Shown one piece after another: positions 12,724 through 30,444 of a stretch of DNA of 47,353 bases; position 1 is the stretch's first letter; every line of letters begins with the position of its first letter. Source of the DNA: Buttiauxella izardii (GTDB lineage: Bacteria > Pseudomonadota > Gammaproteobacteria > Enterobacterales > Enterobacteriaceae); assembly GCF_003601925.1 (NCBI RefSeq), contig NZ_QZWH01000067.1:1-47353 (forward strand), in the 5' to 3' direction. Both the position numbers and the translations under genes were made by a program. The notes below the pieces were generated by a model. That model had not been told where the DNA came from. It saw nothing but the letters and a program-made list of their open reading frames with translations, and made no database searches.

Positions 12724-13884
12724 ATGACGCGCAAACAGGCAACTATCGCAGTACGTAGCGGTTTGAACGATGACGAGCAATACGGCTGCGTTGTCCCACC
12801 TATCCATCTCTCCAGCACTTATAATTTCACCGGATTTAACGAACCGCGTGCGCATGACTATTCGCGCCGTGGCAATCCTACGCGTGATGTCGTACAGCGC
12901 GCACTGGCGGAACTGGAAGGCGGAGCGGGCGCGGTGCTGACGAATACCGGCATGTCAGCCATCCATCTGGTCACGACTGTTTACCTGAAACCAGGCGACC
13001 TGCTGGTGGCTCCGCACGACTGTTACGGCGGCAGTTACCGTCTGTTTGATAGCCTGGCAAAACGCGGCGCGTATCGCGTTTTATTTGTTGATCAAGGTAA
13101 TGAAGCAGCCCTGGCGGCGGCGTTGGCCGAAAAACCGAAACTGGTGCTGGTCGAAAGCCCAAGTAATCCCTTGTTACGCGTGGTAGATATTGCGAAAATC
13201 TGCGCCGCAGCGCGTGAAGCTGGGGCAATCAGCGTAGTGGATAACACCTTCCTCAGCCCGGCGTTGCAAAACCCGCTGGCCCTGGGTGCAGATCTCGTTC
13301 TGCACTCTTGTACTAAATACCTGAACGGTCACTCCGATGTGGTTGCCGGTGTGGTGATTGCGAAAGAGGCGGAAACCGTCACGGAGCTTGCCTGGTGGGC
13401 AAATAATATTGGCGTCACCGGCGGTGCTTTCGATAGCTACTTGTTGCTGCGCGGCCTGCGGACACTTTCACCGCGTATGGAAGTCGCACAACGCAACGCC
13501 CAGGCGATTGTTGATTTCCTGCAAACGCAACCGCTGGTGAAAAAGCTGTATCATCCTTCGCTGCCTGAAAACCAGGGCCATGAAATTGCGGCTCGTCAGC
13601 AAAAAGGTTTTGGCGCGATGCTGAGTTTTGAATTTAATGGTGACGAGCAAAAATTGCGTCGTTTCCTGAGTAGCCTGACTCTCTTCACACTGGCGGAATC
13701 GCTGGGTGGAGTAGAAAGTTTGATTTCACACGCGGCGACGATGACCCATGCGGGCATGGCACCAGAAGCGCGTGCGGCGGCGGGGATTTCAGAAACCTTG
13801 TTGCGTATTTCGACTGGCATTGAAGATAGCGAAGATTTAATTGCTGACCTGGAAAATGCCTTCCGGGTTGCAGCCGAGGGGTAA
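12724..13884 (+). CDS. metB: Cystathionine gamma-synthase
   Basis: MetB joins O-succinylhomoserine and cysteine to give cystathionine, the first step of the transsulfuration route to methionine. The start at 12724 gives 386 residues, the E. coli length; an in-frame reading from 12613 crosses the metboxes and is rejected. It is a fold-type I PLP enzyme with the cofactor lysine at 198 in HSCTKYLNG. It is the first gene of the metBL operon, with metL starting 2 bases after the stop. Repression by MetJ is expected from the upstream metboxes. Confidence 0.97.
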   Translation: MTRKQATIAVRSGLNDDEQYGCVVPPIHLSSTYNFTGFNEPRAHDYSRRGNPTRDVVQRALAELEGGAGAVLTNTGMSAIHLVTTVYLKPGDLLVAPHDCYGGSYRLFDSLAKRGAYRVLFVDQGNEAALAAALAEKPKLVLVESPSNPLLRVVDIAKICAAAREAGAISVVDNTFLSPALQNPLALGADLVLHSCTKYLNGHSDVVAGVVIAKEAETVTELAWWANNIGVTGGAFDSYLLLRGLRTLSPRMEVAQRNAQAIVDFLQTQPLVKKLYHPSLPENQGHEIAARQQKGFGAMLSFEFNGDEQKLRRFLSSLTLFTLAESLGGVESLISHAATMTHAGMAPEARAAAGISETLLRISTGIEDSEDLIADLENAFRVAAEG

Positions 13885-13886
13885 GC

Positions 13887-16319
13887 ATGAGTGTTTCAGC
13901 ACCAACAGGGGCGTCGGGTCGTCAACTGCACAAATTTGGTGGCAGTAGTCTGGCAGATGTGAAGTGTTACCTGCGCGTTGCAGGGATCATGGCCGAGTAT
14001 TCTAAGCCTGGCGACATGATGGTGGTTTCCGCCGCCGGTAGCACAACTAACCAGTTGATTAACTGGTTGAAATTGAGCCAAAGCGATCGTCTTTCTGCTC
14101 ATCAGGTTCAACAGGCATTACGTCGTTACCAGAGCGAGCTGATTAGCGGCCTGGTGGCTCCTGATGTTGCTGATAACTTAATCGGCCAGTTTATTCATGA
14201 CCTTGAGCGTCTGGCCGGTTTGCTTGACGGCAAAATGAGTGACGCGGTGTATGCCGAAGTCGTCGGTCATGGTGAAATTTGGTCTGCTCGCCTGATGTCT
14301 GCGGTGTTGAATGATTTAGGACATCCCGCAGCCTGGCTTGATGCGCGTGAATTTATGCGTGCTGAACGCGCAGCGCAACCGCAAGTTAATGAAGGTTTAT
14401 CCTGGCCGCTGCTGCAAGAATTGATGGCGCAGCATCCGCACAAACGCCTCGTCGTTACTGGCTTTATCTGCCGTAACGATGCGGGTGAAACCGTGCTGCT
14501 TGGCCGTAACGGTTCTGACTATTCTGCAACACAGATTGGCGCACTGGCGGGCGTTTCCCGCGTCACCATCTGGAGCGACGTTGCCGGGGTTTACAGCGCT
14601 GACCCGCGTAAAGTGAAAGATGCGTGTTTGCTGCCTTTGCTGCGTCTTGATGAAGCCAGCGAACTGGCGCGTCTTGCGGCACCTGTGCTCCATGCCCGTA
14701 CTTTGCAGCCAGTTTCCGGTAGCGACATTGACCTGCAATTACGCTGTAGCTACTCACCAGAACAAGGCTCAACACGCATTGAGCGCGTGCTGGCTTCTGG
14801 CACCGGTGCTCGTATCGTGACCAGCCACGACGATGTTTGCCTGATTGAACTCGACGTTTCCCCGCAGCAAGATTTCAAACTGGCGCATAAAGAACTGGAT
14901 ACGTTTTTAAACCGCGCCCAGATTCGCCCGTTGTCGATTGGTGTTCATCCTGACCGCAACCTGCTCCAGCTTTGTTACACCTCCGAAGTGGCGGGCAGCG
15001 TGCTGCAAACGCTTGAGCGCTCTGGCCTGCCGGGCGAATTGCGTCTGCGCGAAGGTTTGGCGCTGGTGGCGATGGTCGGTGCGGGCGTTTGCCGTAACCC
15101 ACTGCACAGCCACCGTTTCTGGCAGCAGCTGAAAGATCAGCCAGTCGAATTTATCTGGCAGTCAGAAGACGGCATTAGCCTGGTGGCGGTGTTGCGCGTT
15201 GGCCCAACCGAAAACCTCATCAAAGGCCTGCATAAATCCCTGTTCCGTGCTGAAAAACGCATCGGCCTGGTTCTGTTCGGTAAAGGTAATATTGGCTCGC
15301 GTTGGCTGGAGTTGTTTGCCCGTGAACAAGAAACCCTTTCAGCTCGCACCGGCTTTGAATTCGTTCTGGCGGGTGTGGTGGATAGCAGCCGCAGCTTGCT
15401 GAATTACGAAGGCCTGGACGCCAGCCGCGCCCTCGCTTTCTTCAATGATGAAGCCGTCCAGCAAGATGAAGAATCGCTATTCCAGTGGATGCGTGCGCAT
15501 CCTTATGATGATTTAGTGGTTCTGGATGTGACCGCGAGCGAGCAACTGGCCGATCAGTATCTTGATTTTGCCAGCCATGGTTTCCACGTCATCAGCGCGA
15601 ACAAAGTGGCGGGTGCCAGCAATAGCCAGAAGTACCGTGAAATCCGTAATGCTTTTACCAAGACGGGCCGTCACTGGCTTTACAACGCCACTGTGGGTGC
15701 CGGTTTGCCGGTCAACCACACCGTGCGAGACTTGCGTGAAAGCGGCGATTCCATTCTGGCTATCAGCGGTATTTTCTCTGGCACACTTTCCTGGTTGTTC
15801 CTGCAATTCGACGGCACCGTGCCGTTTACCGATTTAGTTGATCAGGCCTGGCAGCAAGGGCTGACTGAACCCGATCCACGCGTCGATCTCTCCGGGAAAG
15901 ATGTGATGCGCAAGTTGGTGATTCTGGCTCGCGAGGCGGGTTATGACATCGAACCGGATCAGGTGCGTGTCGAGTCGCTGGTCACCAATGGCAGTGAAAC
16001 CGGTTCAATTGACCATTTCTTTGAAAATGGCGATGAGTTGAATGAGCAAATGCTTCAGCGTTTTGAAGCCGCTCAGGAAATGGGTCTGGTTCTGCGTTAC
16101 GTGGCACGTTTCGATGCAAACGGTAAAGCGCGTGTTGGCGTGGAAGCGGTGCGTCTTGAGCATCCTCTGGCATCGTTGCTGCCATGCGATAACGTGTTTG
16201 CTATCGAAAGCCGTTGGTATCGCGATAACCCGCTGGTGATTCGTGGGCCGGGCGCCGGGCGCGATGTCACAGCCGGTGCAATTCAGTCGGATCTCAACCG
16301 TTTAGCGCAGTTGCTGTAA
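13887..16319 (+). CDS. metL: Bifunctional aspartokinase II / homoserine dehydrogenase II
   Basis: MetL catalyses two steps of the aspartate pathway: aspartate to aspartyl phosphate, and aspartate semialdehyde to homoserine. It has 810 residues, as in E. coli. The N-terminal kinase begins with KFGGSSLAD at 16-24, ACT-like regulatory segments follow at about 300-450, and the dehydrogenase half starts near residue 460 with the NADP-binding VLFGKGNIGSRW. It is translationally linked to metB (2-base gap) and repressed by methionine through MetJ. Confidence 0.97.
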   Translation: MSVSAPTGASGRQLHKFGGSSLADVKCYLRVAGIMAEYSKPGDMMVVSAAGSTTNQLINWLKLSQSDRLSAHQVQQALRRYQSELISGLVAPDVADNLIGQFIHDLERLAGLLDGKMSDAVYAEVVGHGEIWSARLMSAVLNDLGHPAAWLDAREFMRAERAAQPQVNEGLSWPLLQELMAQHPHKRLVVTGFICRNDAGETVLLGRNGSDYSATQIGALAGVSRVTIWSDVAGVYSADPRKVKDACLLPLLRLDEASELARLAAPVLHARTLQPVSGSDIDLQLRCSYSPEQGSTRIERVLASGTGARIVTSHDDVCLIELDVSPQQDFKLAHKELDTFLNRAQIRPLSIGVHPDRNLLQLCYTSEVAGSVLQTLERSGLPGELRLREGLALVAMVGAGVCRNPLHSHRFWQQLKDQPVEFIWQSEDGISLVAVLRVGPTENLIKGLHKSLFRAEKRIGLVLFGKGNIGSRWLELFAREQETLSARTGFEFVLAGVVDSSRSLLNYEGLDASRALAFFNDEAVQQDEESLFQWMRAHPYDDLVVLDVTASEQLADQYLDFASHGFHVISANKVAGASNSQKYREIRNAFTKTGRHWLYNATVGAGLPVNHTVRDLRESGDSILAISGIFSGTLSWLFLQFDGTVPFTDLVDQAWQQGLTEPDPRVDLSGKDVMRKLVILAREAGYDIEPDQVRVESLVTNGSETGSIDHFFENGDELNEQMLQRFEAAQEMGLVLRYVARFDANGKARVGVEAVRLEHPLASLLPCDNVFAIESRWYRDNPLVIRGPGAGRDVTAGAIQSDLNRLAQLL

Positions 16320-16346
16320 TTTCTCTAAACCCCATCTCTGCATTCT

Positions 16347-16379
16347 CCCTCTCCCTGAGGGAGAGGGCCGGGGTGAGGG
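16347..16379. repeat. Intergenic palindromic repeat between metL and metF
   Basis: CCCTCTCCC (16347-16355) pairs perfectly with GGGAGAGGG (16359-16367) around TGA, followed by CCGGGGTGAGGG. The same family occurs at 298-325 and 37852-37922. As a stable hairpin it may also end metBL transcripts. Confidence 0.7.
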
Positions 16380-16484
16380 TTCTTCTTCATATCCTCCCAT
16401 CATGAATAAAATTCAACTTGAGTGAGAATTCCTCATTTCTTGTGTTGAATTTTCAGTTGACGACGTCATGATTTTCCTTCATCT

Positions 16485-16516
16485 TGCTATCTGGACGTCT
16501 AAACGTCTGGATGTAG
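16485..16516 (+). promoter_or_regulatory. Metboxes upstream of metF
   Basis: GGACGTCT (16493-16500) and AAACGTCT (16501-16508) each match the metbox consensus at 7 of 8 positions in tandem. Weaker octamers flank them at 16485 and 16509. A further TGACGACGTCA palindrome-like stretch lies near 16458. Repression of metF by MetJ is expected. Confidence 0.85.
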
Positions 16517-16553
16517 TAAAACACAACACCACATAATAAAATGCGATTGATGA

Positions 16554-17453
<900 letters not shown>

Positions 17454-20038: not shown

Positions 20039-21142
20039 TTATTCCCACTCTTGCAAGAAACGTTGCCCGTACTGGTCGGCGACCAGCAGTGCCGCGTAAA
20101 CCTGATTCGGAGTGGCACCGCCCGGCATGTTGTGAATAGTTTCACCTTCCGCACAAGACGCCTGCGCCACGATGCGCATTTTTTCCTGAACATCCTGTTT
20201 GATATCCAGTTGCGCCAGAGTTATCGGCAAGCCGACGGAGTGGCAAAGTGCTGCAACCGTTTCAATCTCCTCTACCGGCGCGTTTTCCAGCACCAGTTGC
20301 GTCAGCGTACCGAAAGCGACTTTTTCGCCGTGATAGAAATGGTGTGCGTCTGGAATTGCCGTCAGACCGTTATGCACCGCATGGGCTGCGGCCAGACCAC
20401 CACTTTCAAAGCCGACGCCGCTCAGATAAGTGTTGGCTTCAATCACGCGTTCCAGGGCAGGCGTCACGACATGTAATTCAGCCGCCAGCATCGCTTTTTC
20501 GCCTTCTTGCAGCAGCGTGTTGTAGCAAAGTTCGGCCAGCGCAAGCGCCGCCTGAGTACACTTACCGCCCGCCATCGTGGTGGCACCGCTGCGTGAGCAG
20601 GCGCGAGCCTCAAACCAGGTTGCCAGCGCATCGCCGATGCCCGCTGCTAACAAACGTGCCGGTGCATTCGCCACGATTTGAGTATCAACAATCACCATAT
20701 TCGGGTTGTTCGGCAGCATCAGGTAGCGGTCAAACTCGCCTTCGTCGGTATAAATCACGGACAATGCGCTGCACGGTGCATCGGTCGAAGCAATCGTCGG
20801 CGCAATGGCAACAGGCACGCCCATAAAATGGGCCAGCGCTTTGGCGGTATCGAGCGTTTTACCGCCGCCAATACCGAGCACTGCGCCGCATCGTGCTTTC
20901 TCGGCAACGCCTCGTAAGCGGTCAATTTCATTTTGCGAACATTCGCCGCCAAACGCGACAATTTCCAGCGCCAGTCCAGCATCTTTGAAGCTTTTTTCCA
21001 GCGCTGATTCGGCAAACCCTAAGACAAATTTATCCCCGACAACCAGCCAGCGTTCGGCCATAGGTTTGAGATAAACACCCAGACGAGTGATGGCATCAGC
21101 GCCCTGAATGTACTTACTCGGTGATTGAATAATGCAGTCCAT
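20039..21142 (-). CDS. gldA: NAD-dependent glycerol dehydrogenase
   Basis: GldA is an iron/zinc-type alcohol dehydrogenase that interconverts glycerol and dihydroxyacetone; it also reduces hydroxyacetone to 1,2-propanediol. The 367 residues match E. coli. The metal ligands are Asp171, His254 and His271 and the nucleotide loop is GGGKTLD (92-98). It is last in the ptsA-fsaB-gldA operon, 12 bases after fsaB. In the pathway suggested for this locus it would reduce the hydroxyacetone released by FsaB, recycling NADH. Confidence 0.97.
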
Positions 21143-21154
21143 ACTTTATTTCCC

Positions 21155-21817
21155 TCACAAGTTGATATGACCAAACGCGATAGTCCAGTCTTGCTCAAAC
21201 TTCTCTATAGCCGACTCTACCGCAGGGGTATTGAGCATTTGTTGCGCTACATCTAAGGGAAGAGTGATCGCTTCGCAGCCTGCTAACAAACAGTCCAGCG
21301 CCTGGCGTGGAGTTTTGAAACTGGCGGCCAGCACTTTGCTGGCGGGCGCATGCAGTTCAAGCAGGGTTTGTAATTCCTGAACCATACGAATGCCATCTCC
21401 GCCCTGGGCATCGACACGGTTGACGTACGGCGCAACATATTTCGCCCCCGCCAGCGCGGCCAACAATCCTTGAGATGCGCTGTACACGGCGGTGCCAAGC
21501 GTCGTGATGCCTTCTTTTTTCAGCAGTTTTATGGCGGCTAAGCCTTCCGCCGTGACCGGGATTTTCACCACAATTCCAGGGATGGTATTGCTCAGCCGTT
21601 TGGCTTCATCCACCATTCCCTGGGCATCGCGGCTCATGGTTTGGGCAAACAAAATGCCTTCTGCGCCGATGGCTTTTTGCAATCGCGGCAGCACATCCCA
21701 GATGGATTCTTTACTGGCGGCCACAATACTTGGGTTAGTGGTGACCCCGGCGATGGGGAAAATACGCGCCAGGCGCTCTACTTCCGCCACATTGGCGGTA
21801 TCCAGATACAGTTCCAT
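21155..21817 (-). CDS. fsaB: Fructose-6-phosphate aldolase FsaB (TalC)
   Basis: FsaB is a class I aldolase of the transaldolase family that cleaves fructose 6-phosphate, or its 1-deoxy analogue, to glyceraldehyde 3-phosphate plus dihydroxyacetone or hydroxyacetone. It has 220 residues, as in E. coli TalC. The Schiff-base lysine is Lys85 in VVKIPVT. The short length and lack of transaldolase extensions mark it as Fsa and not TalA/B. It lies between ptsA and gldA with gaps of 11 and 12 bases, so it is cotranscribed with both. Confidence 0.96.
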
Positions 21818-21828
21818 ATTGTGCCCCC

Positions 21829-24330
21829 TTAAAGTTCTAGTTCGTGTTGCAACAGGCTGGCAATAGCCTCGGCAGAGGTGGCGTTAACCAGTGCGTTGCG
21901 GAATTCTTCATGCATGATGCGGCGCGCCAGGCGGGAGAAAATACGCATATGCTGGTCGCCTGCGGCATGCTTATTGAGCGTCAGCATGATGATGAATTGC
22001 GCTTCGTCATCGCCCCATTTAACGGGCGCGGGTAGCCGTGCCACGCTAATAGTCGATTGTTCGATATGTTCTGATTTGCTGTGTGGAATGGCGAAACTGA
22101 AACCCAGCCCCGTAGAGAACACGGCTTCCCGCGCCCACAAATCTGCTTCCAGCTTACGGGGATAACGGCAGCGTCCGGCGAGCAGCAGGTTATCGGTCAT
22201 CCCTTTAATCACTTCTTCTTTGCTGCGCCAGTCATTTTCAAGCGAGATACATTGCGTCGTGATAAGCGGCGCATCCTGCTGCGTCATGCGGAACTGGGCC
22301 AGCAAATGTTCGACTTCCAGAGAAGTCCGGCAAGCCATCGCCTGATTGAGTAACTGGCGGCAGGCACGGCTGTCGAGCTGCGCCAGGCGTGCTTTTGTTG
22401 CTGGAATGGACGGCGCGCTCATACTGATTTCATCCAACCCTAAACCGACCATTAGCGGCAGAACCGAGCCTTTCGCCCCCAATTCACCGCATAGACCAAT
22501 CCATTTCCCCTGACGATGTACGGCTTGCACCGCGAAATCCAGCGCACGCAGGAAAGCGGGGTTCAGGCTGTTGTAATGGCGAGTGACCTTCGCATTATCA
22601 CGGTCAACCGCCAGCAGATACTGCGTTAAGTCGTTGCTGCCAATGCTAAAGAAATCAATCTCTTCACAGCACTGGTCGATGATAAACATCACTGATGGCA
22701 CTTCCAGCATGATGCCCAACGGGATTTTTTCATCAAAGGGGATATGTTCACTGCGTAACGATTGTTTCACTTCCGCGAGTTGATCTTTCACCCACAAGAT
22801 TTCTTCCATTGATGAGATCATCGGGATCATGATTTTCAACGATCCGTGCGCGGAGGCGCGCAAAATGGATCGTAACTGGCTGTGGAAAAGGGCCAGATAT
22901 TCCTGATAAATACGCACGGCGCGGTAGCCCAGGAACGGGTTGTTCTCCGCTGGAATATTCAGGTAATCCACCGGTTTATCACCGCCGATATCAATGGTGC
23001 GCACAATTATGCTGCGCCCGTTTGCCCCTTCCAGCGCCTGGCAATAAATGTTGTAAAGCTCATCTTCGGACGGCGCATGAGCGCGGTCCATGTAAAGCAT
23101 TTCAGTACGGAAGAGGCCAACAGCCTCCGCGCCGTTATTAAAGGCCGGGGCCGATTCAACACAATGGGCAATGTTTGCGGCGACTTCGAGACGAATGCCA
23201 TCGGCTGTGCGGCCCGGTTGATCCAGCCAGACCTTTTGCTGATTGCGAACCCGTTGCTGCACGTAAGCTTCTTGCTGGTAATAGCGTTTTACCGGCTCGT
23301 TGAGATTTACGACGACAACGCCAAGATCGCCGTCAATCTGCACGGTTTGTTGTAGCCACGGGGAAAGTGCGTCGATATCCACGCCAACGAGCGTGGGAAT
23401 ATTGAATGAACGAGCCAGAATGACCGTGTGGGAAGTGGTTCCGCCGCTTCGTAGCAGCAACCCTTTGAGCAAGGTTTTATCCAGCTCCAGAAACTGACTC
23501 GGGGTGATTTCATCCGCCAGACAAATCGCGGCGTGCTGGAGTTTGCCAGGCGTTGGGAAGCGAGTTTCACCATAAATATGTTGCAGCAACTGGAAGCAAA
23601 CATCCCGAACATCCAGTACCCGTTCTTGCAGATAAACGCTTTCCGACTGGGCAAACTGCGCGCAAAAATGCGCTGCTGTTTTCACTATCGCCGCCGCACA
23701 ACTCATTCCGGCGTGAATGTGTTCCAACAGCAAAGTGCGCAATGAACTATCACTCGCCAGCGAGCGATGCGCCTCAAGAATGGTGCTTGCCGTTCCGTCA
23801 TTCGCCAGCAGCTGTAACTTGATGGTTTTCAGTAACCTATCCAGGCCATTTTCTAGAGCCGCTTGTTCCTCATCAATGCTTCTCCCCGCAGGTAATTCAC
23901 CCAGTTTATTTAAATCGAGGGAGGCCAGTTTAATCAGCGAACCGCTGGCGCTTCCACCACAAACGGGATTAGCACGGAACAGGCTGGGTTGCAGGCGTGA
24001 AAGGGATTCTGGAATGGGGGCAATTTCGCTGCTTTGTGCTTCCGGTAGTGGGGCATCGCAGTGAGGAAACTCGTCTTGCATGAACGCTGAAAGTCTCGCG
24101 AACGCGCTTTCTGCATCATTCCCGGCGATGAGTAACTGGCAGTCATCCCCTTTAAGCGTGCCTGTTCCGATTAGCGACAGGGCACTTTTCGCATCTCCCC
24201 GACGCTCGGTACGCAGGTTATGCCATTCAATTGTCGAGGAAAACTGATTGCACAGTGTTTCAACCAGACTGGCTGGACGAGCATGTACCCCATTAGGTAA
24301 GTCGCAGCGGAAATTTATAACCAGTGCCAT
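21829..24330 (-). CDS. ptsA: Multi-domain PTS protein PtsA (HPr-like, enzyme I and EIIA-Fru)
   Basis: PtsA carries phosphate from PEP to a fructose-type enzyme II. The start at 24330 (MALVINF), after GGGAG, gives 833 residues as in E. coli; a longer reading from 24396 is rejected. An N-terminal HPr-like domain has His16 in NGVHARPAS. Enzyme I follows, with the phospho-accepting His301 in [13 protein letters not shown] and the PEP-binding core ([18 protein letters not shown]). A C-terminal EIIA-Fru domain has His750 in [10 protein letters not shown]. It heads the operon with fsaB and gldA, divergent from frwC, its likely enzyme IIC partner. Confidence 0.96.
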
Positions 24331-24637
24331 AGGTGTTCTCCCGAACCCACTCAAACAATGGCTACAGAATAAGAGGCCTGCGACATCAGCCGCCACGAGA
24401 CAAAACTGTTAAAAACTGGACAAATGTATTGTCTGTGGTTATTTGCGAGATATCTCACAAAACGTGAAAAAGCAAGTAATGAAACCAGTAATGCTAACTT
24501 TTGAGGCGGATCGCATTTCCCTTCATGTATTACAAAAATCCAGTAAATGGCGTTTTTGTCCACTGTCTGCCGCCGCCTGGATTGCCTATTGTGTCCACAA
24601 TATTTTGGACATGCGCCGCTAAGGCCGGGAGTGCTTT
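24331..24637. promoter_or_regulatory. Divergent ptsA / frwC control region
   Basis: This 307-base stretch drives both operons of the locus. It holds a strong CRP site (24444-24459), a GACAA-n5-TTGTC palindrome (24419-24433), and four copies of the hexamer TGTCCA or its complement: 24417-24422, 24557-24562, 24592-24597 and 24606-24611. The last two form an inverted repeat with an 8-base spacer, about 30 bases before frwC. I saw no small gene. The repeated hexamer is a candidate binding site for a local regulator such as YijO. Confidence 0.55.
24444..24459. promoter_or_regulatory. CRP site between ptsA and frwC
   Basis: TGCGAgatatcTCACA matches the CRP consensus at 9 of 10 positions and is symmetrical over 18 bases. 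Its central position could serve both divergent operons, fitting catabolite control of a PTS-linked sugar pathway. Confidence 0.7.
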
Positions 24638-25720
24638 ATGAAAGAGTTGGTCCAGATCCTCAAAAATACGCGACAGCATTTAATGACCGGTGTGTCGCAT
24701 ATGATTCCTTTCGTGGTGGCCGGCGGTATTTTGCTGGCTGTGTCCGTCATGTTGTATGGCAAAGGTGCGGTGCCTGATGCACTCACCGATCCCAATCTGA
24801 AAAAACTGTTTGATATCGGCGTGGCAGGTTTAACGCTGATGGTGCCTTTCCTTGCCGCTTACATCGGCTATTCCATCGCTGAGCGCTCTGCACTTGCCCC
24901 TTGTGCGATTGGTGCATGGGTGGGGAACAGCTTCGGTGCGGGTTTCTTTGGCGCGATTATCGCCGGGATCATCGGGGGCATTGTTGTCTTCTATATCAAG
25001 AAAATCCCGGTGCCAAAAATTCTGCGCTCGGTGATGCCTATTTTCATCATTCCTATCGTCGGCACCTTTATTACTGCGGGCATCATGATGTGGGGGTTGG
25101 GCGAGCCAGTCGGCGCGCTGACCAGCAGCCTGACTCAGTGGCTGCAAGGGATGCAGCAAGGCAGCATCGTTGTTCTGGCCGTGATTATGGGGCTGATGTT
25201 GGCGTTTGATATGGGCGGCCCGGTCAACAAAGTGGCCTATGCCTTTATGCTGATCTGCGTCGCACAAGGCGTGTATACCGTGGTGGCTATAGCCGCGGTC
25301 GCCATTGCAGTTCCGCCATTAGGGCTTGGCCTCGCCACATTAATGAACCGCAAAAACTTCAATGGTGAAGAACGTGAGGCGGGCAAAGCGGCATTAGTGA
25401 TGGGCTGCGTGGGCGTTACCGAAGGCGCCATTCCCTTTGCCGCTGCCGACCCGTTGCGCGTTATCCCTTCAATTATGCTTGGCTCGGCTTGCGGTGCAGT
25501 CACTGCGGCTCTACTCGGCGCGCAATGCTACGCAGGTTGGGGCGGCTTGATTGTGTTACCGGTCGTCGAAGGCAAATTAGGTTTTGTCGTGGCATTGCTG
25601 GTGGGGGCGGTGGTGACGGCGGTATGCGTCAATTTACTCAAATCGTATGCCCGTAAAAAACAAGTCGATGCGCCAGCGAAAGCTGAAGAAGACCTGGATC
25701 TGGATTTTGAAATTAACTGA
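24638..25720 (+). CDS. frwC: Fructose-type PTS enzyme IIC component FrwC
   Basis: FrwC is the membrane channel (EIIC) of a fructose-family phosphotransferase system. It has 360 residues, against 359 in E. coli, with about nine to ten hydrophobic helices and the family segment GVTEGAIPFAAADP in the second half. The C-terminus is acidic (DLDLDFEIN). It has an AAGGCCGGGAG leader before the ATG. It is the first gene of frwC-frwB-pflD-pflC-frwD and should work with FrwB or FrwD (EIIB) and PtsA (EI/HPr/EIIA). The substrate was long unknown; 1,5-anhydromannitol is the candidate from pathway context. Confidence 0.95.
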   Translation: MKELVQILKNTRQHLMTGVSHMIPFVVAGGILLAVSVMLYGKGAVPDALTDPNLKKLFDIGVAGLTLMVPFLAAYIGYSIAERSALAPCAIGAWVGNSFGAGFFGAIIAGIIGGIVVFYIKKIPVPKILRSVMPIFIIPIVGTFITAGIMMWGLGEPVGALTSSLTQWLQGMQQGSIVVLAVIMGLMLAFDMGGPVNKVAYAFMLICVAQGVYTVVAIAAVAIAVPPLGLGLATLMNRKNFNGEEREAGKAALVMGCVGVTEGAIPFAAADPLRVIPSIMLGSACGAVTAALLGAQCYAGWGGLIVLPVVEGKLGFVVALLVGAVVTAVCVNLLKSYARKKQVDAPAKAEEDLDLDFEIN

Positions 25721-25742
25721 TTGAGATAAAAGGATATTAACC

Positions 25743-26063
25743 ATGACTAAAATTATTGCTGTTACCGCTTGTCCGTCAGGTGTTGCTCATACTTACATGG
25801 CGGCAGAAGCGCTGGAGAGCGCAGCTAAAGCCAAAGGCTGGGAAGTAAAAGTAGAAACCCAGGGTTCGATTGGTCTTGAAAACGAGCTGACGGCTCAGGA
25901 TGTGGAAAGTGCCGACATGGTGATTTTAACCAAAGATATCGGAATCAAAATGGAAGAGCGCTTTGCCGGGAAAACCATCGTGCGCGTCAACATCAGCGAC
26001 GCAGTAAAACGTGCTGATGCCATCATGCGCAAAATTGAAGCCCATCTGGCGCAAACCGCCTGA
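25743..26063 (+). CDS. frwB: Fructose-type PTS enzyme IIB component FrwB
   Basis: FrwB is a small cytoplasmic EIIB that receives phosphate from the PtsA EIIA domain and passes it to the sugar crossing FrwC. It has 106 residues, as in E. coli. The phospho-cysteine is Cys10 in the family signature TACPSGVAHTYMA, and VETQGSIG follows. It is 22 bases behind frwC, with AAAAGGA before the ATG. FrwD, at the end of the same operon, is a second EIIB-like protein. Confidence 0.95.
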   Translation: MTKIIAVTACPSGVAHTYMAAEALESAAKAKGWEVKVETQGSIGLENELTAQDVESADMVILTKDIGIKMEERFAGKTIVRVNISDAVKRADAIMRKIEAHLAQTA

Positions 26064-26092
26064 GCCTTTGAATGACCAGTAAGGAGCGCACC

Positions 26093-28390
26093 ATGACTCA
26101 ACGTATCGAACGCCTGAAATCCGCATTGTTTGCCCAACCGCGAGAAATTTCGCTGGAGCGCGCAGTGTTGTATACCGCCAGTCACCGCACCACAGAAGGT
26201 GAACATGTGCTGTTACGTCGTGCAAAAGCCACGGCATACATTCTGGACAACGTACACATTGCGATTCGAGATGATGAGTTGATCGCGGGGAACCGTACCG
26301 TGAAACCGCGAGCCGGAATTATGTCTCCGGAAATGGACCCTTACTGGTTGCTCAAAGAGTTGGAACAATTCCCAACGCGCCCGCAAGACCGATTCGAAAT
26401 GAGCGAGCAGGATAAAACGCTCTACCGCGAGCAGCTTTACCCCTACTGGGAAAAGCGTTCGATGAAAGACTTCATCAACAACCAAATGACGGATGAAGTT
26501 AAGGCGGCGGTAAAGACGCAAATCTTTAGCGTCAACCAAACCGACAAGGGGCAAGGGCACATCATTATTGATTACCCGCGCCTGCTGCAAAACAGCCTGG
26601 GTAAGCTGGTGGCGGAATTGCGTGAACATTGCCAGCAAGCGCCAGATAACCACTTTTACCAGGCCGCGTTGATTTTGCTGGAGGCTTCACAACGGCATAT
26701 TTTGCGCTATGCCGCGTTGGCGGAAGAGATGGCGACTCAATGTCCTGAAGCATCACGCCGCGACGAGCTACTGAAAATCGCCGAGATATCACGCCATAAC
26801 GCAGAACATCAGCCGCAAGACTTTTGGCAAGCCTGCCAGTTGTTCTGGTACATGAACATTATTCTCCAGTACGAATCGAATGCCAGTTCGCTGTCTTTGG
26901 GGCGCTTCGATCAATATATGCTGCCGTTTTATCAGGCGTCATTGAATCGCGGTGAAAGCCCTGAATTCCTGCGCGAGCTGCTGGAATCGTTGTGGGTGAA
27001 ATGCAACGACATCGTTCTACTGCGTTCAACCAGCAGTGCTCGTTATTTTGCTGGCTTCCCAACGGGCTACACCATTTTGCTGGGCGGCCTGACAGAAAAC
27101 GGGCGCAGTGCGGTAAACATCCTTTCGTTCCTGTGCCTTGATGCCTACCAGAGTATTCAGTTGCCGCAGCCCAATCTGGGCGTGCGAGTAAACGAACTGA
27201 TTGACCGCCCCTTCTTGCTCAAGACCGCCGAAACTGTGCGTCTGGGGACGGGGATTCCGCAAATATTTAACGACGAAGTGGTCGTTCCCGCATTCTTAAA
27301 CCGGGGTGTTTCCCTGGAAGATGCGCGTGACTATGCCGTTGTGGGCTGCGTTGAGCTTTCTATCCCTGGGCGAACCTACGGGCTGCATGACATCGCCATG
27401 TTTAACCTTTTGAAGGTGATGGAAATTGTCCTGCTGGAAAACGAAGGCAATGGCGGTCTGGATTACGAAAACCTGTTGCAGCAAATTCGCGACAAAATCT
27501 GCCACTACATCAAGCTGATGGTGGAAGGAAGCAACATTTGCGATATCGGCCACCGCGACTGGGCACCGGTTCCGCTGCTTTCGTCGTTTATTGAAGATTG
27601 CCTGGCTAACGGCAAAGACATTACCGAGGGCGGTGCACGGTACAACTTCTCAGGTGTTCAGGGGATTGGTATCGCCAACCTTAGCGACTCTTTGCATGCC
27701 CTGAACGGCATGGTGTTTGAGCAACAACGGCTAAGTTTTGACGAGCTCTTGCATGTGTTAAAGGCAAACTTTGCGACGCCAGAAGGGGCGCAAATCCGCG
27801 CACGGTTAATCAATCGTTTTGAGAAATACGGCAATGATATCGACGAGGTCGACAACATTAGTGCCGATTTACTGCGCTTCTACTGCAAAGAAGTGGAGAA
27901 ATATGCCAATCCACGCGGCGGCTATTTTACTCCGGGTTCTTATACGGTTTCCGCGCATGTGCCATTAGGTGCAGTCGTTGGCGCGACACCTGACGGGCGC
28001 TATGCGGGCGAACAACTGGCGGATGGTGGGCTGTCGCCCATGCTGGGCCAGGACTGCCAGGGGCCAACGGCGGTGCTGAAATCGGTCAGTAAACTGGATA
28101 ACTATTTGCTGTCCAATGGCACGTTGCTGAACGTGAAATTTACGCCGAGTACGCTGGAAGGTGAGGCGGGGCTGCATAAACTGGCCGATTTCCTCGGTGC
28201 GTTTACTAAGCTCAAATTGCAGCATATCCAGTTCAATGTAGTGAATGCCGAAACGCTGCGTGACGCGCAAACTCGCCCGCAGGATTATGCCGGGCTTGTG
28301 GTGCGTGTTGCAGGATACAGCGCATTCTTTGTTGAGCTGTCGAAGGAGATCCAGGATGACATTATCCGCCGTACAGCGCATCAGCTGTGA
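26093..28390 (+). CDS. pflD: Glycyl radical enzyme PflD (not a pyruvate formate-lyase)
   Basis: PflD is an anaerobic glycyl radical enzyme. The start at 26093, after TAAGGAG, gives 765 residues as in E. coli; an upstream ATG at 26072 is less likely. The thiyl cysteine is Cys419 in VVGCVELS, and the radical glycine is Gly741 in RVAGYSAFF. Pyruvate formate-lyase has two adjacent cysteines; only one is present here, in the GCVE form of the dehydratase/eliminase branch. I recall a report that E. coli PflD opens the ring of 1,5-anhydromannitol 6-phosphate to 1-deoxyfructose 6-phosphate. Its activase pflC overlaps its 3' end by 35 bases. Confidence 0.95.
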   Translation: MTQRIERLKSALFAQPREISLERAVLYTASHRTTEGEHVLLRRAKATAYILDNVHIAIRDDELIAGNRTVKPRAGIMSPEMDPYWLLKELEQFPTRPQDRFEMSEQDKTLYREQLYPYWEKRSMKDFINNQMTDEVKAAVKTQIFSVNQTDKGQGHIIIDYPRLLQNSLGKLVAELREHCQQAPDNHFYQAALILLEASQRHILRYAALAEEMATQCPEASRRDELLKIAEISRHNAEHQPQDFWQACQLFWYMNIILQYESNASSLSLGRFDQYMLPFYQASLNRGESPEFLRELLESLWVKCNDIVLLRSTSSARYFAGFPTGYTILLGGLTENGRSAVNILSFLCLDAYQSIQLPQPNLGVRVNELIDRPFLLKTAETVRLGTGIPQIFNDEVVVPAFLNRGVSLEDARDYAVVGCVELSIPGRTYGLHDIAMFNLLKVMEIVLLENEGNGGLDYENLLQQIRDKICHYIKLMVEGSNICDIGHRDWAPVPLLSSFIEDCLANGKDITEGGARYNFSGVQGIGIANLSDSLHALNGMVFEQQRLSFDELLHVLKANFATPEGAQIRARLINRFEKYGNDIDEVDNISADLLRFYCKEVEKYANPRGGYFTPGSYTVSAHVPLGAVVGATPDGRYAGEQLADGGLSPMLGQDCQGPTAVLKSVSKLDNYLLSNGTLLNVKFTPSTLEGEAGLHKLADFLGAFTKLKLQHIQFNVVNAETLRDAQTRPQDYAGLVVRVAGYSAFFVELSKEIQDDIIRRTAHQL

Positions 28391-29231
28391 GGTTCTCGAA
28401 GGTGACGAGCTAAAAGCGCGAATTTTTAATATTCAGCGCTACTCCCTGAATGATGGTCATGGCATCAGGACGGTCGTTTTTTTTAAAGGCTGCCCGCACC
28501 ACTGCCCGTGGTGCGCAAACCCGGAGTCACTCTCCGGGAAGATTGAAACCGTGCGGCGCTTGTCTAAGTGTCTGCACTGCCCAACCTGCCAGAACGATGC
28601 CGATGAATGCCCGTCCGGCGCGATGGAAAGAATTGGCCGCGATTATTCTCTGGCTGAACTGGAAACAGAGGTGCTCAAAGATGACGTTTTCTTCCGGTCA
28701 TCAAAAGGTGGCGTAACGCTTTCTGGCGGTGAAGTGCTGATGCAGGCAGCTTTTGCGACGCGTTTTCTGAAACGCCTGAAACTGTTAGGGATTCATACCG
28801 CGATTGAAACCGCTGGCGATGCTGCGCCTGAGAAAGTGCTCGCGCTGGCGCAACAATGCAATGAAGTGCTTTTTGACGTGAAGATCATGGACGCTGAAAT
28901 AGCGAAAGCTGAGCTGAATATCAATCAGCCCAGAGTTCTGGCCAATCTTAAAATGCTGGTAGAGGCGGGCATTCATGTCATTCCTCGCGTGCCACTGATT
29001 CCGGGTTATACCCTTGAGCGGCGCAATATGGAGGAAATTCTGCAATTCCTCGCGCCGTTAAAACTCAGCGAAATTCATCTGCTGCCTTTCCACCAGTACG
29101 GTGAGCCTAAATATTCATTGATTGGCCGGGCGTGGAAAATGCAGGATGTGTTGGTTCCTGATGAGTCGGAAATAAATCCACTACGGATAATGGCTGAGAA
29201 TGCGGGCTATCGTGTGACAATTGGCGGCTAG
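28356..29231 (+). CDS. pflC: Glycyl-radical enzyme activating protein PflC
   Basis: PflC is a radical SAM enzyme that installs the glycyl radical on PflD. The start is the ATG at 28356, with AAGGAGATCCAGG in front, inside the end of pflD; it gives 291 residues, against 292 in E. coli, and MTLSAVQRIS matches the E. coli N-terminus. The SAM-binding [4Fe-4S] cysteines are in KGCPHHCPWCANPE (CxxxCxxC), and a further cysteine group CLHCPTC follows, as in the clostridial-type activases. The 35-base overlap suggests translational coupling with pflD. Confidence 0.95.
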   Translation: MTLSAVQRISCEVLEGDELKARIFNIQRYSLNDGHGIRTVVFFKGCPHHCPWCANPESLSGKIETVRRLSKCLHCPTCQNDADECPSGAMERIGRDYSLAELETEVLKDDVFFRSSKGGVTLSGGEVLMQAAFATRFLKRLKLLGIHTAIETAGDAAPEKVLALAQQCNEVLFDVKIMDAEIAKAELNINQPRVLANLKMLVEAGIHVIPRVPLIPGYTLERRNMEEILQFLAPLKLSEIHLLPFHQYGEPKYSLIGRAWKMQDVLVPDESEINPLRIMAENAGYRVTIGG

Positions 29232-29252
29232 TTTTCATTGAGGATGGCTGAG

Positions 29253-29597
29253 ATGACTCGACATTTAGTTGCAGTAACGGCATGTGTTAGCGGCGTCGCC
29301 CACACCTATATGGCAGCCGAACGGCTCGAAAAACTCTGCCAGCAAGAAAAGTGGACAGTTAAAATCGAAACGCAGGGTGCGCTGGGAATTGAAAATGGAC
29401 TGACGCAAACGGATATTGAGCAAGCTGATGTGGTGTTGCTGATTACCGATATTGAGTTGGCGGGGGCGGCGCGTTTTGATCACTGCCGATGTGTGCAGTC
29501 GGGTATTAATGCCTTTTTGCGTGAGCCTCAAAAGGCGATGTCAGCGGTGCGTCGTATTTTTGGCACTCCGCAGGACACTCGCATCATTCTCAATTAA
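29253..29597 (+). CDS. frwD: Second fructose-type PTS enzyme IIB-like component FrwD
   Basis: FrwD is an EIIB-like protein with Cys11 in TACVSGVAHTYMA, nearly the same signature as FrwB, and VKIETQGALGIEN following. The start at 29253 (MTRHLVAV) has GAGG nine bases upstream and gives 114 residues, against 113 in E. coli; ATGs at 29238 and 29244 are possible but less likely. It ends the frwC-pflC operon and its stop overlaps the convergent yijO by 8 bases. Its C-terminal part differs from FrwB, so it may have a separate role. Confidence 0.93.
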   Translation: MTRHLVAVTACVSGVAHTYMAAERLEKLCQQEKWTVKIETQGALGIENGLTQTDIEQADVVLLITDIELAGAARFDHCRCVQSGINAFLREPQKAMSAVRRIFGTPQDTRIILN

Positions 29598-30444
29598 CTG
29601 ATTTTTCCGTTAGCTGGCTGTGATACTGGCGTCGATATTCTGACGGCGATCTCTCGGTGTTCTTCCTGAATAACCGGCAAAAATAGTTACTGTCGACAAA
29701 ACCGCAGGCATGAGCCACTTCTTTAACCTTCAAGTCGTAGCGTTTAAGCAACGTTTTGGCGTGTTCCAGGCGGGTGTGGTTGAGATATTCGTTAAATCCC
29801 ACGGCACCGGTTTTCTGAAACAGGTGTGAGAGATAGTTGGGGGATATGTAAAAGGCCTGAGCGACGGATTCCCGGGTTAGCTGTTCTGCATATTTCTCAT
29901 CAATGTATTCACGCACGGCTTCGAAAAGTGCCTGGCTGCGCGAAGCGGTCTGGATTTGGCTGCCAAGCAAATCGGTACAGTGGCTCAAAATACTGCTGAC
30001 GATAAACCGTGCGGTTTGCTGTTCATGAGGTTGCATCACCAGTTCATTCAACGCCTGAAGCAGAAACGAGCCAATTCGTGGCCCACGTCGGGCGACGTTC
30101 TGTTTCCCCAACGTTTTAAACGTCGAGCCATCCCAATGCAGCACACTAAATCCAAGCTGCTGTTTGCCAAATAAAATACTGAGCGTGGTGACAGGCGAAT
30201 TCCACTGCGGGTTGTTCCAGCATTTTGCCGGAATATAAAGCACGTCGTGTTGCTCAAGCCTCGCGGGCATTCCTGCATCGCAGGCATCCATTAATACGCC
30301 GTCTAACACCACTTCGAGACGCGGGAAATCCACCTGATAAGCCAGTTCCGATGGAGCCGTCTGGTTATCGGCGAACCAGATGTGTTGAATGCCTGAAGGG
30401 CTATTTAGCAGGCGAGAAAGAATTTGGCTCACATCGTAATTCAT
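29590..30444 (-). CDS. yijO: AraC-family transcriptional regulator YijO
   Basis: YijO is an AraC/XylS-type regulator of unproven function. The start at 30444 (MNYDVSQIL) gives 284 residues, against about 283 in E. coli; a longer reading from 30600 crosses the ppc terminator and is rejected. An N-terminal sensing region of about 170 residues is followed by two helix-turn-helix motifs at about 185-275 (VAQAFYISPNYLSHLF; VKEVAHACGFVDSNYF). It is convergent with frwD, overlapping by 8 bases, and is the only regulator within the ptsA/frw/pflD locus, so it is the best candidate to control it. Confidence 0.93.
   Translation of the reverse strand: MNYDVSQILSRLLNSPSGIQHIWFADNQTAPSELAYQVDFPRLEVVLDGVLMDACDAGMPARLEQHDVLYIPAKCWNNPQWNSPVTTLSILFGKQQLGFSVLHWDGSTFKTLGKQNVARRGPRIGSFLLQALNELVMQPHEQQTARFIVSSILSHCTDLLGSQIQTASRSQALFEAVREYIDEKYAEQLTRESVAQAFYISPNYLSHLFQKTGAVGFNEYLNHTRLEHAKTLLKRYDLKVKEVAHACGFVDSNYFCRLFRKNTERSPSEYRRQYHSQLTEKSVN

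Follow-up and report, generated by a model that had tools for sequence, protein, structure and literature searches.

A very likely orthologue of the Escherichia coli 1,5-anhydromannitol fermentation locus in Buttiauxella izardii, with proposed Frw import and candidate YijO and CRP control

Buttiauxella izardii carries nine genes with intact open reading frames at positions 20039-30444 of contig NZ_QZWH01000067.1 (assembly GCF_003601925.1), in the order gldA-fsaB-ptsA / frwC-frwB-pflD-pflC-frwD / yijO. This locus is very likely the orthologue of the Escherichia coli locus for the fermentation of 1,5-anhydromannitol, with import proposed to proceed through the Frw phosphotransferase system (PTS) and expression proposed to be controlled by YijO and CRP. 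The 47,353-nucleotide stretch of the contig that was analysed is referred to below as the window. Two divergent operons, ptsA-fsaB-gldA and frwC-frwB-pflD-pflC-frwD, lie with open frames where the initial annotation had placed them, and the outer neighbours of the locus are katG and ppc.

Relation to the published pathway

The pathway is already in print. According to a 2025 review (PMC12441222), E. coli YbiW and PflD cleave 1,5-anhydroglucitol-6-phosphate and 1,5-anhydromannitol-6-phosphate to 1-deoxyfructose-6-phosphate after phosphorylation by a PTS, a result credited there to Ma et al. (JACS 146:26187, 2024); the E. coli study of PflD mentioned in the initial annotation therefore exists, the review crediting it for the PflD step. 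Structures of PflD and YbiW are held by the PDB (8yjo, 8yjn and 8id7). Since the pathway has been published, the locus in the window is an orthologue and, as a locus, no discovery. In the E. coli study, Fsa reportedly splits 1-deoxyfructose-6-phosphate and GldA is said to reduce hydroxyacetone to 1,2-propanediol. The word 'anhydroglycolysis' does not occur in the literature searched, outside which most subscription papers lie.

The cluster in the window probably ferments 1,5-anhydromannitol, with enzyme steps that would carry over from E. coli by orthology (the PflD step from the review). PtsA, which has its own HPr, EI and EIIA, would hand the phosphate of phosphoenolpyruvate via FrwB to FrwC, and FrwC would take in 1,5-anhydromannitol as the 6-phosphate, a role proposed from co-occurrence. 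PflC would put the glycyl radical on PflD, which would open the ring of 1,5-anhydromannitol-6-phosphate to give 1-deoxyfructose-6-phosphate; FsaB would convert this to glyceraldehyde-3-phosphate and hydroxyacetone, and GldA would turn the latter into 1,2-propanediol.

In a profile comparison of the locus proteins, eight of the nine reached the cut-off of an NCBIfam model (Table 1). The phosphotransfer chain is complete in the locus by models and motifs (EI, HPr, EIIA, EIIB and EIIC). PflD retains the thiyl cysteine motif GCVE and the glycyl radical loop RVAGYSAFF, PtsA the IPH motif, and GldA the motifs GGGK, HAVHNG and HGEK; we take the motifs checked in PflD, PflC, FsaB, PtsA, FrwB, FrwD and GldA to have the functional roles assigned to them. 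The claim that all catalytic residues are intact thus holds for every motif checked, and these cover a subset of the catalytic residues. The closest named relatives by PflD are Buttiauxella and Cedecea (93% identical). The E. coli locus (L016 and L038; G, L and C numbers are our labels for genomes, loci and contigs) has the same genes in the same order and orientation as the window, and both operators described below; its PflD is 86-87% identical to that of the window, with ~78% DNA identity over the aligned pieces. The two differ in that eptC lies in the flank in E. coli, whereas ppc directly follows yijO in the window.

With a substrate carried over by orthology alone, PflD of the window might act on anhydroglucitol-6-phosphate or another compound rather than on anhydromannitol-6-phosphate. 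This is highly improbable, given that its best solved relative is PflD itself (8yjo, 1531 bits, against 490 for the best choline trimethylamine-lyase, 467 for YbiW and 124 for pyruvate formate-lyase) and that the window's genome contains a separate YbiW relative, 39% identical to the window PflD.

The Frw phosphotransferase system and PflD

The distribution of FrwC was compared with that of PflD and YbiW across an even sample of 149 genomes from the window's family, each with a completeness of at least 95; among the genomes listed, several measure 0.5-1.2 Mb. At thresholds of E<=1e-250 for PflD and YbiW and E<=1e-120 for FrwC, PflD was found in 25 genomes and FrwC in exactly the same 25, both being absent from the remaining 124. 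YbiW was found in 49 genomes, all 25 PflD genomes included, and 24 of the 49 are without FrwC; it is thus PflD, rather than YbiW, that the Frw PTS follows. Because linked genes are gained and lost jointly, the unlinked cases are the informative ones. PflD and FrwC are unlinked in two of the 25 genomes, lying ~1.2 Mb apart on the same contig in G213 and on different contigs in G331. The FrwC match has an internal stop in G329 and is short in G331.

Locus counts here and below rest on the best 80 of 132 PflD relatives. Seven of these loci (five Kluyvera and two Pseudocitrobacter) have a displaced pflDC with no frw genes within the flanks; hyp-like and fhlA-like genes were recognized by eye as neighbours in the two that were inspected, and the same neighbour clusters recur in all seven. 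Each of the seven genomes has one close PflD (86-87%) and, elsewhere, a PtsA relative (79-82%), and at all six PtsA sites fetched the order is ptsA|frwC-frwB-frwD-yijO-ppc, as if pflDC had been excised from between frwB and frwD. A different transporter for PflD in Kluyvera and Pseudocitrobacter was accordingly rejected. In the Kluyvera genome G001, to which the displaced locus L014 belongs, ptsA (G001:C192:243-2742, locus L092) is split over two frames, either in reality or through an assembly error.

These distributions lend indirect support, through co-occurrence, to the 'fructose-like' Frw PTS as the importer of anhydromannitol and not of anhydroglucitol. Weighing against it, the joint presence of linked genes does not count as separate support, and as few as one or two events may lie behind the unlinked cases. 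The Frw PTS might instead serve another sugar, fructose or a fructose-like one as its annotation says, and merely neighbour PflD: FrwB, FrwC and FrwD match fructose-family models, and PtsA was identified, according to a 2019 paper, as a component of a putative PTS for anaerobic fructose catabolism (PMC6643234). We consider this improbable, since at the thresholds used none of the 149 genomes has just one of FrwC and PflD (25 have both, 124 neither), and since the two are kept when unlinked and share an operator even where pflD is displaced. No paper joining 'anhydromannitol' with the frw genes was found in the literature searched, most subscription papers lying outside it, and Ma et al. (2024) may already name the transporter. 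The proposal of the initial annotation that PtsA and FrwCB(D) carry out import is thus supported indirectly, and its description of import and catabolism as one self-contained module suits the window. As a general statement the module fails: gldA is within the flanks of only 36 of the 80 loci (ppc being present in every one of these), pflDC lies elsewhere in Kluyvera and Pseudocitrobacter, and fsaB, gldA and yijO stand alone in some genomes.

The candidate operator and the regulator YijO

The 307 bp gap between ptsA and frwC (24331-24637) is deeply conserved and carries an inverted pair of RCTGGAYWWWTGTA sites. Each of these candidate operators forms the outer half of a direct repeat of 20 bp, the inner half of which abuts the expected -35 region. 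Both sites are present with <=1 mismatch in all 79 gaps compared, a set made up of the window, six further sites and those 72 of the 80 loci that have ptsA in the flank; the gap sequences are related, so these are not 79 independent tests. The spacing between the operators is 114-118 bp in 73 of the 79 gaps and 203-205 bp in four from Vibrio. The 4.77 Mb genome to which the window belongs has exactly two perfect matches to RCTGGAYWWWTGTA, both in this gap, and shuffling the window 100 times gave no perfect match. The best CRP-like match lies at 15 bp from the operator in 78 of the 79 gaps on the ptsA side and in 76 on the frwC side, with <=2 of 10 mismatches in 75 and 59 gaps, respectively, a level reached by ~1.6% of single-base shuffles.

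The operator travels with the first gene of the transcription unit. In a survey of genes with mapped starts, allowing <=1 mismatch within 260 bp, it was found before ptsA in 79/79 and before frwC in 80/80 cases, before pflD in 7/7 displaced copies versus 0/74 inside the operon, and before fsaB in 6/6 reduced loci versus 0/63 elsewhere, at least 51 of these 63 lying directly behind ptsA. The control genes gave 0/46 (gldA), 0/77 (pflC) and 0/85 (yijO); autoregulation of yijO through the same operator was rejected on this result, only two of the 85 having a site at 2 mismatches. The reduced loci, found in five genomes with YijO and no PflD at the threshold (G077, G241, G265, G273 and G288) and at a second site in G339, keep yijO, the operator, fsaB and gldA at the ppc site after the loss of ptsA, the frw genes and pflDC, and in four of the six the second operator, with no gene to drive, is still present at <=1 mismatch. 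In G241 the yijO frame is interrupted by a stop. YbiW is present in every one of the 30 YijO-positive genomes, so that FsaB and GldA in the reduced genomes may serve the YbiW branch; since at most 16 AraC-type candidates were scored per genome, YijO may be under-counted in this set.

YijO is the best candidate for the protein that binds this operator, a role inferred from its linkage, its retention with the operator and the AraC-like layout of the sites. A YijO relative is within the flanks of 76 of the 80 loci, and lies near the loci of Vibrio, Gilliamella and Necropsobacter despite their different gene order. All matches of YijO to AraC-type NCBIfam models, among the best 25 of 29, are below cut-off, and the Pfam models HTH_18 and HTH_AraC are above it (PF12833, the AraC-type DNA-binding domain, E 9.1e-22). 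AraC-type activators typically use a direct repeat next to the -35 region, and araBAD is controlled by AraC and CRP. YijO would bind the two mirror-image operators in the gap and, with CRP bound 15 bp away, would activate both operons, an araBAD-like arrangement built twice, back to back. Promoters of the araBAD type resemble the predicted sites of the window in having direct-repeat half-sites by the -35 region and a CRP-like site upstream, and differ in site sequence and regulator and from the two mirror copies within one divergent gap.

Several observations count against this model. YijO as the binder rests on linkage and the AraC-like layout, and it may have other targets, since its binding to the rmf promoter has been reported from a screen in vitro (PMC6134199). 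The window's genome has 29 further one-mismatch sites (31 in total, versus 17 when the pattern is reversed). On the frwC side the CRP-like match is weak, with >=2 of 10 mismatches in 77 of the 79 gaps. No strict sigma-70 promoter was found in the gap, which fits an activated promoter without demonstrating one. The displaced pflD promoters (L014 at 9899, L020, L022, L028, L029, L027 and L069) keep the operator and have no CRP-like site at 15 bp (7/7, 5 mismatches); another regulator may act there.

The inverted pair could accordingly be the site of another regulator, or a DNA structure, with YijO controlling something else. The rmf binding, the occurrence of two YijO paralogues in some genomes and the scoring of only up to 16 AraC-type candidates per genome would agree with this. 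We nevertheless regard it as unlikely, because a YijO relative accompanies 76 of the 80 loci even under a different gene order, because yijO and the operator were retained together in the reduced loci, and because the direct repeat by the -35 region is of the kind AraC-type activators use. The accessible parts of the literature place YijO among transcription factors of unknown function in 2022 (PMC9308461), mention it in a repeat-based attenuator guess (PMC2965389) and otherwise contain it in co-expression lists and the rmf result; no tie of YijO to this locus was found in them.

The anhydroglucitol branch seems to be separately controlled. In the window's genome, the paralogous glycyl radical enzyme YbiW is encoded with an activase, a relative of Fsa (presumably YbiY and FsaA) and an adjoining DeoR-like regulator gene, named by eye (L002 670-5254, contig C1), with no PTS gene in the 5.4 kb read. 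A shared YijO operator was rejected for the ybiW operon, there being none at <=2 mismatches in L002; the DeoR-like neighbour and this lack of a YijO operator are what point to separate control.

A dioxygenase gene in relatives, and the features of the locus

Of the 80 loci, 18 have a gene of the phytanoyl-CoA dioxygenase family (phyH; PF05721) near pflDC and a YijO relative; these loci come from five Kluyvera, three Klebsiella, three Raoultella, two Enterobacter sp., one Yersinia, one unclassified Enterobacterales and three Vibrio. Two copies were scanned against PF05721 (5.6e-22 and 3.2e-22), and the best solved relative by sequence is the distant fungal AusE (5ybl, E 8.7e-8). Residues H125, D127, H203 and R213-R215, which do not vary among the products aligned (12 of 18), correspond to the HxD, H and R residues of the family, an Fe(II)/2-oxoglutarate facial triad; we take them to be the metal and 2-oxoglutarate binders. 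The operator was examined in 20 phyH promoters, 16 from the 18 loci and four from further copies, and occurs 98 to 103 bp before the start with <=1 mismatch in 9 and <=2 mismatches in 17. L083 and L084, left out because no start was called, both have a perfect site. In 12 hand-picked promoters the CRP-like site at the same 15 bp has one mismatch in eight and 2 to 4 in the other four. The YijO proteins adjoining phyH form one clade of 19, plus three Vibrio rows.

Intact phyH is present in four of the 149 family genomes (G232, G267, G331 and G339), all PflD-positive and the only ones of the 149 with two YijO matches. The gene is on a different contig from pflD in G267 and G232, where its operator has 2 mismatches or is missing. 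A shortened phyH remnant in G270 (L114 9472-9879), a genome without PflD, would fit decay of the gene once the pathway had been lost. A wide distribution of phyH in the phylum was rejected, only the PflD-positive G232 of 398 genomes having a match at E<=1e-40, as was its presence in the window's genome, which has no match at E<=1e-20.

The linkage and the weaker form of the operator suggest an aerobic branch. In Klebsiella, Raoultella, Kluyvera and Vibrio, a YijO-type switch might, as a tentative proposal, also drive a dioxygenase whose hydroxylation of C1 in 1,5-anhydromannitol or its 6-phosphate would directly give mannose or mannose-6-phosphate. Our reading of phyH as an aerobic bypass of the oxygen-sensitive PflD is doubtful to the same degree. 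The confinement of phyH to PflD-positive genomes (4/4) has a hypergeometric p of 6e-4 against the 149 genomes, but of only 0.06 against the 49 YbiW-positive genomes, both uncorrected for kinship. Also unfavourable are the three promoters with no site within 2 mismatches (L051, L061 and L109), the eight of 20 with only 2-mismatch sites, and a C1 hydroxylation in Sinorhizobium ascribed in the review to a P450-like, unidentified enzyme and not to a dioxygenase (PMC12441222). A role of the phyH product in metabolite repair or on a side product is possible. Should the proposal be true, one type of regulator would serve two chemically opposite routes for a single sugar, the radical chemistry of PflD in the absence of oxygen and the phyH oxygenase in its presence, and the window's lineage would have the PflD radical route only.

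Two further arrangements were seen near the loci. In L100 (11117-16200) and L104 (1555-4851), from genomes without PflD, a further glycyl radical enzyme (35% identity to PflD) is encoded with its own activase near gldA; L100 also carries genes for a DeoR-like regulator and for a sugar-phosphate deaminase-like protein, both named by eye. In the Vibrio locus L082, a short-chain reductase-like gene (13192-14049, by eye) lies between pflC and the fsa relative, with no gldA within the flank, and may replace GldA.

The coordinates are collected in Table 1. The start of ptsA is set by homology, its longest frame beginning at 24396, and that of pflD is the most likely one (765 aa).

Table 1. Genes and predicted control sites of the locus, with examples of phyH in relatives
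Feature	Position	Strand	Description
gldA	20039..21142	-	Glycerol/1,2-propanediol dehydrogenase; last gene of ptsA unit; NF047954 728.9 bits (cut-off 700); motifs as in text
fsaB	21155..21817	-	Fructose-6-phosphate aldolase family; NF009296 377.5 bits (cut-off 306); VKIPVT
ptsA	21829..24330	-	Fused HPr-EI-EIIA phosphotransferase; 833 aa by homology; domain-level match only, PTS_I_fam 466.7 (cut-off 341.7)
frwC	24638..25720	+	PTS EIIC, fructose family; NF007787 690.7 bits (cut-off 426)
frwB	25743..26063	+	PTS EIIB; CPSGVAHT; 206.6 bits (cut-off 135)
pflD	26093..28390	+	Glycyl radical enzyme, E. coli PflD orthologue (PDB 8yjo); NF007437 1620.5 bits (cut-off 1109)
pflC	28356..29231	+	Radical SAM activating enzyme; CPHHCPWC; 499.1 bits (cut-off 326)
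frwD	29253..29597	+	Second EIIB-like protein; CVSGVAHT; 197 bits (cut-off 153)
yijO	29590..30444	-	AraC-family regulator; proposed activator
Proposed -10 of ptsA	24366..24371	-	TATTCT; conserved columns; predicted
Promoter-proximal half-site, ptsA-side operator	24397..24404		GAGACAAA; 20 bp from its repeat
Candidate YijO operator, ptsA side	24415..24428	+	ACTGGACAAATGTA; 98 bp from ptsA start
CRP-like site, ptsA side	24444..24459		TGCGAGATATCTCACA; 15 bp inside ptsA-side operator
Weak CRP-like site, frwC side	24500..24515		TTTGAGGCGGATCGCA; 15 bp inside frwC-side operator
Candidate YijO operator, frwC side	24531..24544	-	ACTGGATTTTTGTA on - strand; mirror of ptsA-side site; 107 bp from frwC start
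Promoter-proximal half-site, frwC-side operator	24553..24565		TTTTTGTCCACTG; adjoins expected -35 position
Proposed -10 of frwC	24587..24592	+	TATTGT; conserved columns; predicted
phyH (example in L014)	13246-14010	-	PF05721; often with operator and CRP-like site before gene
phyH (example in L049)	13629-14393	-	As for L014
phyH (example in L082)	16271-17029	+	As for L014

The gene cluster itself is real and already known, and the locus in the window adds one species. The review states that the build-up of 1,5-anhydroglucitol-6-phosphate causes the neutropenia of glycogen storage disease type Ib (GSDIb) and G6PC3 deficiency, that the radical route is restricted to oxygen-free conditions and that, short of the discovery of an aerobic enzyme, a probiotic has little chance of success (PMC12441222). 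The present analysis adds a testable candidate for the YijO operator and regulon, comparative evidence in favour of anhydromannitol import by the Frw PTS and, in phyH, a lead that may point towards an aerobic enzyme for a 1,5-anhydrohexitol.

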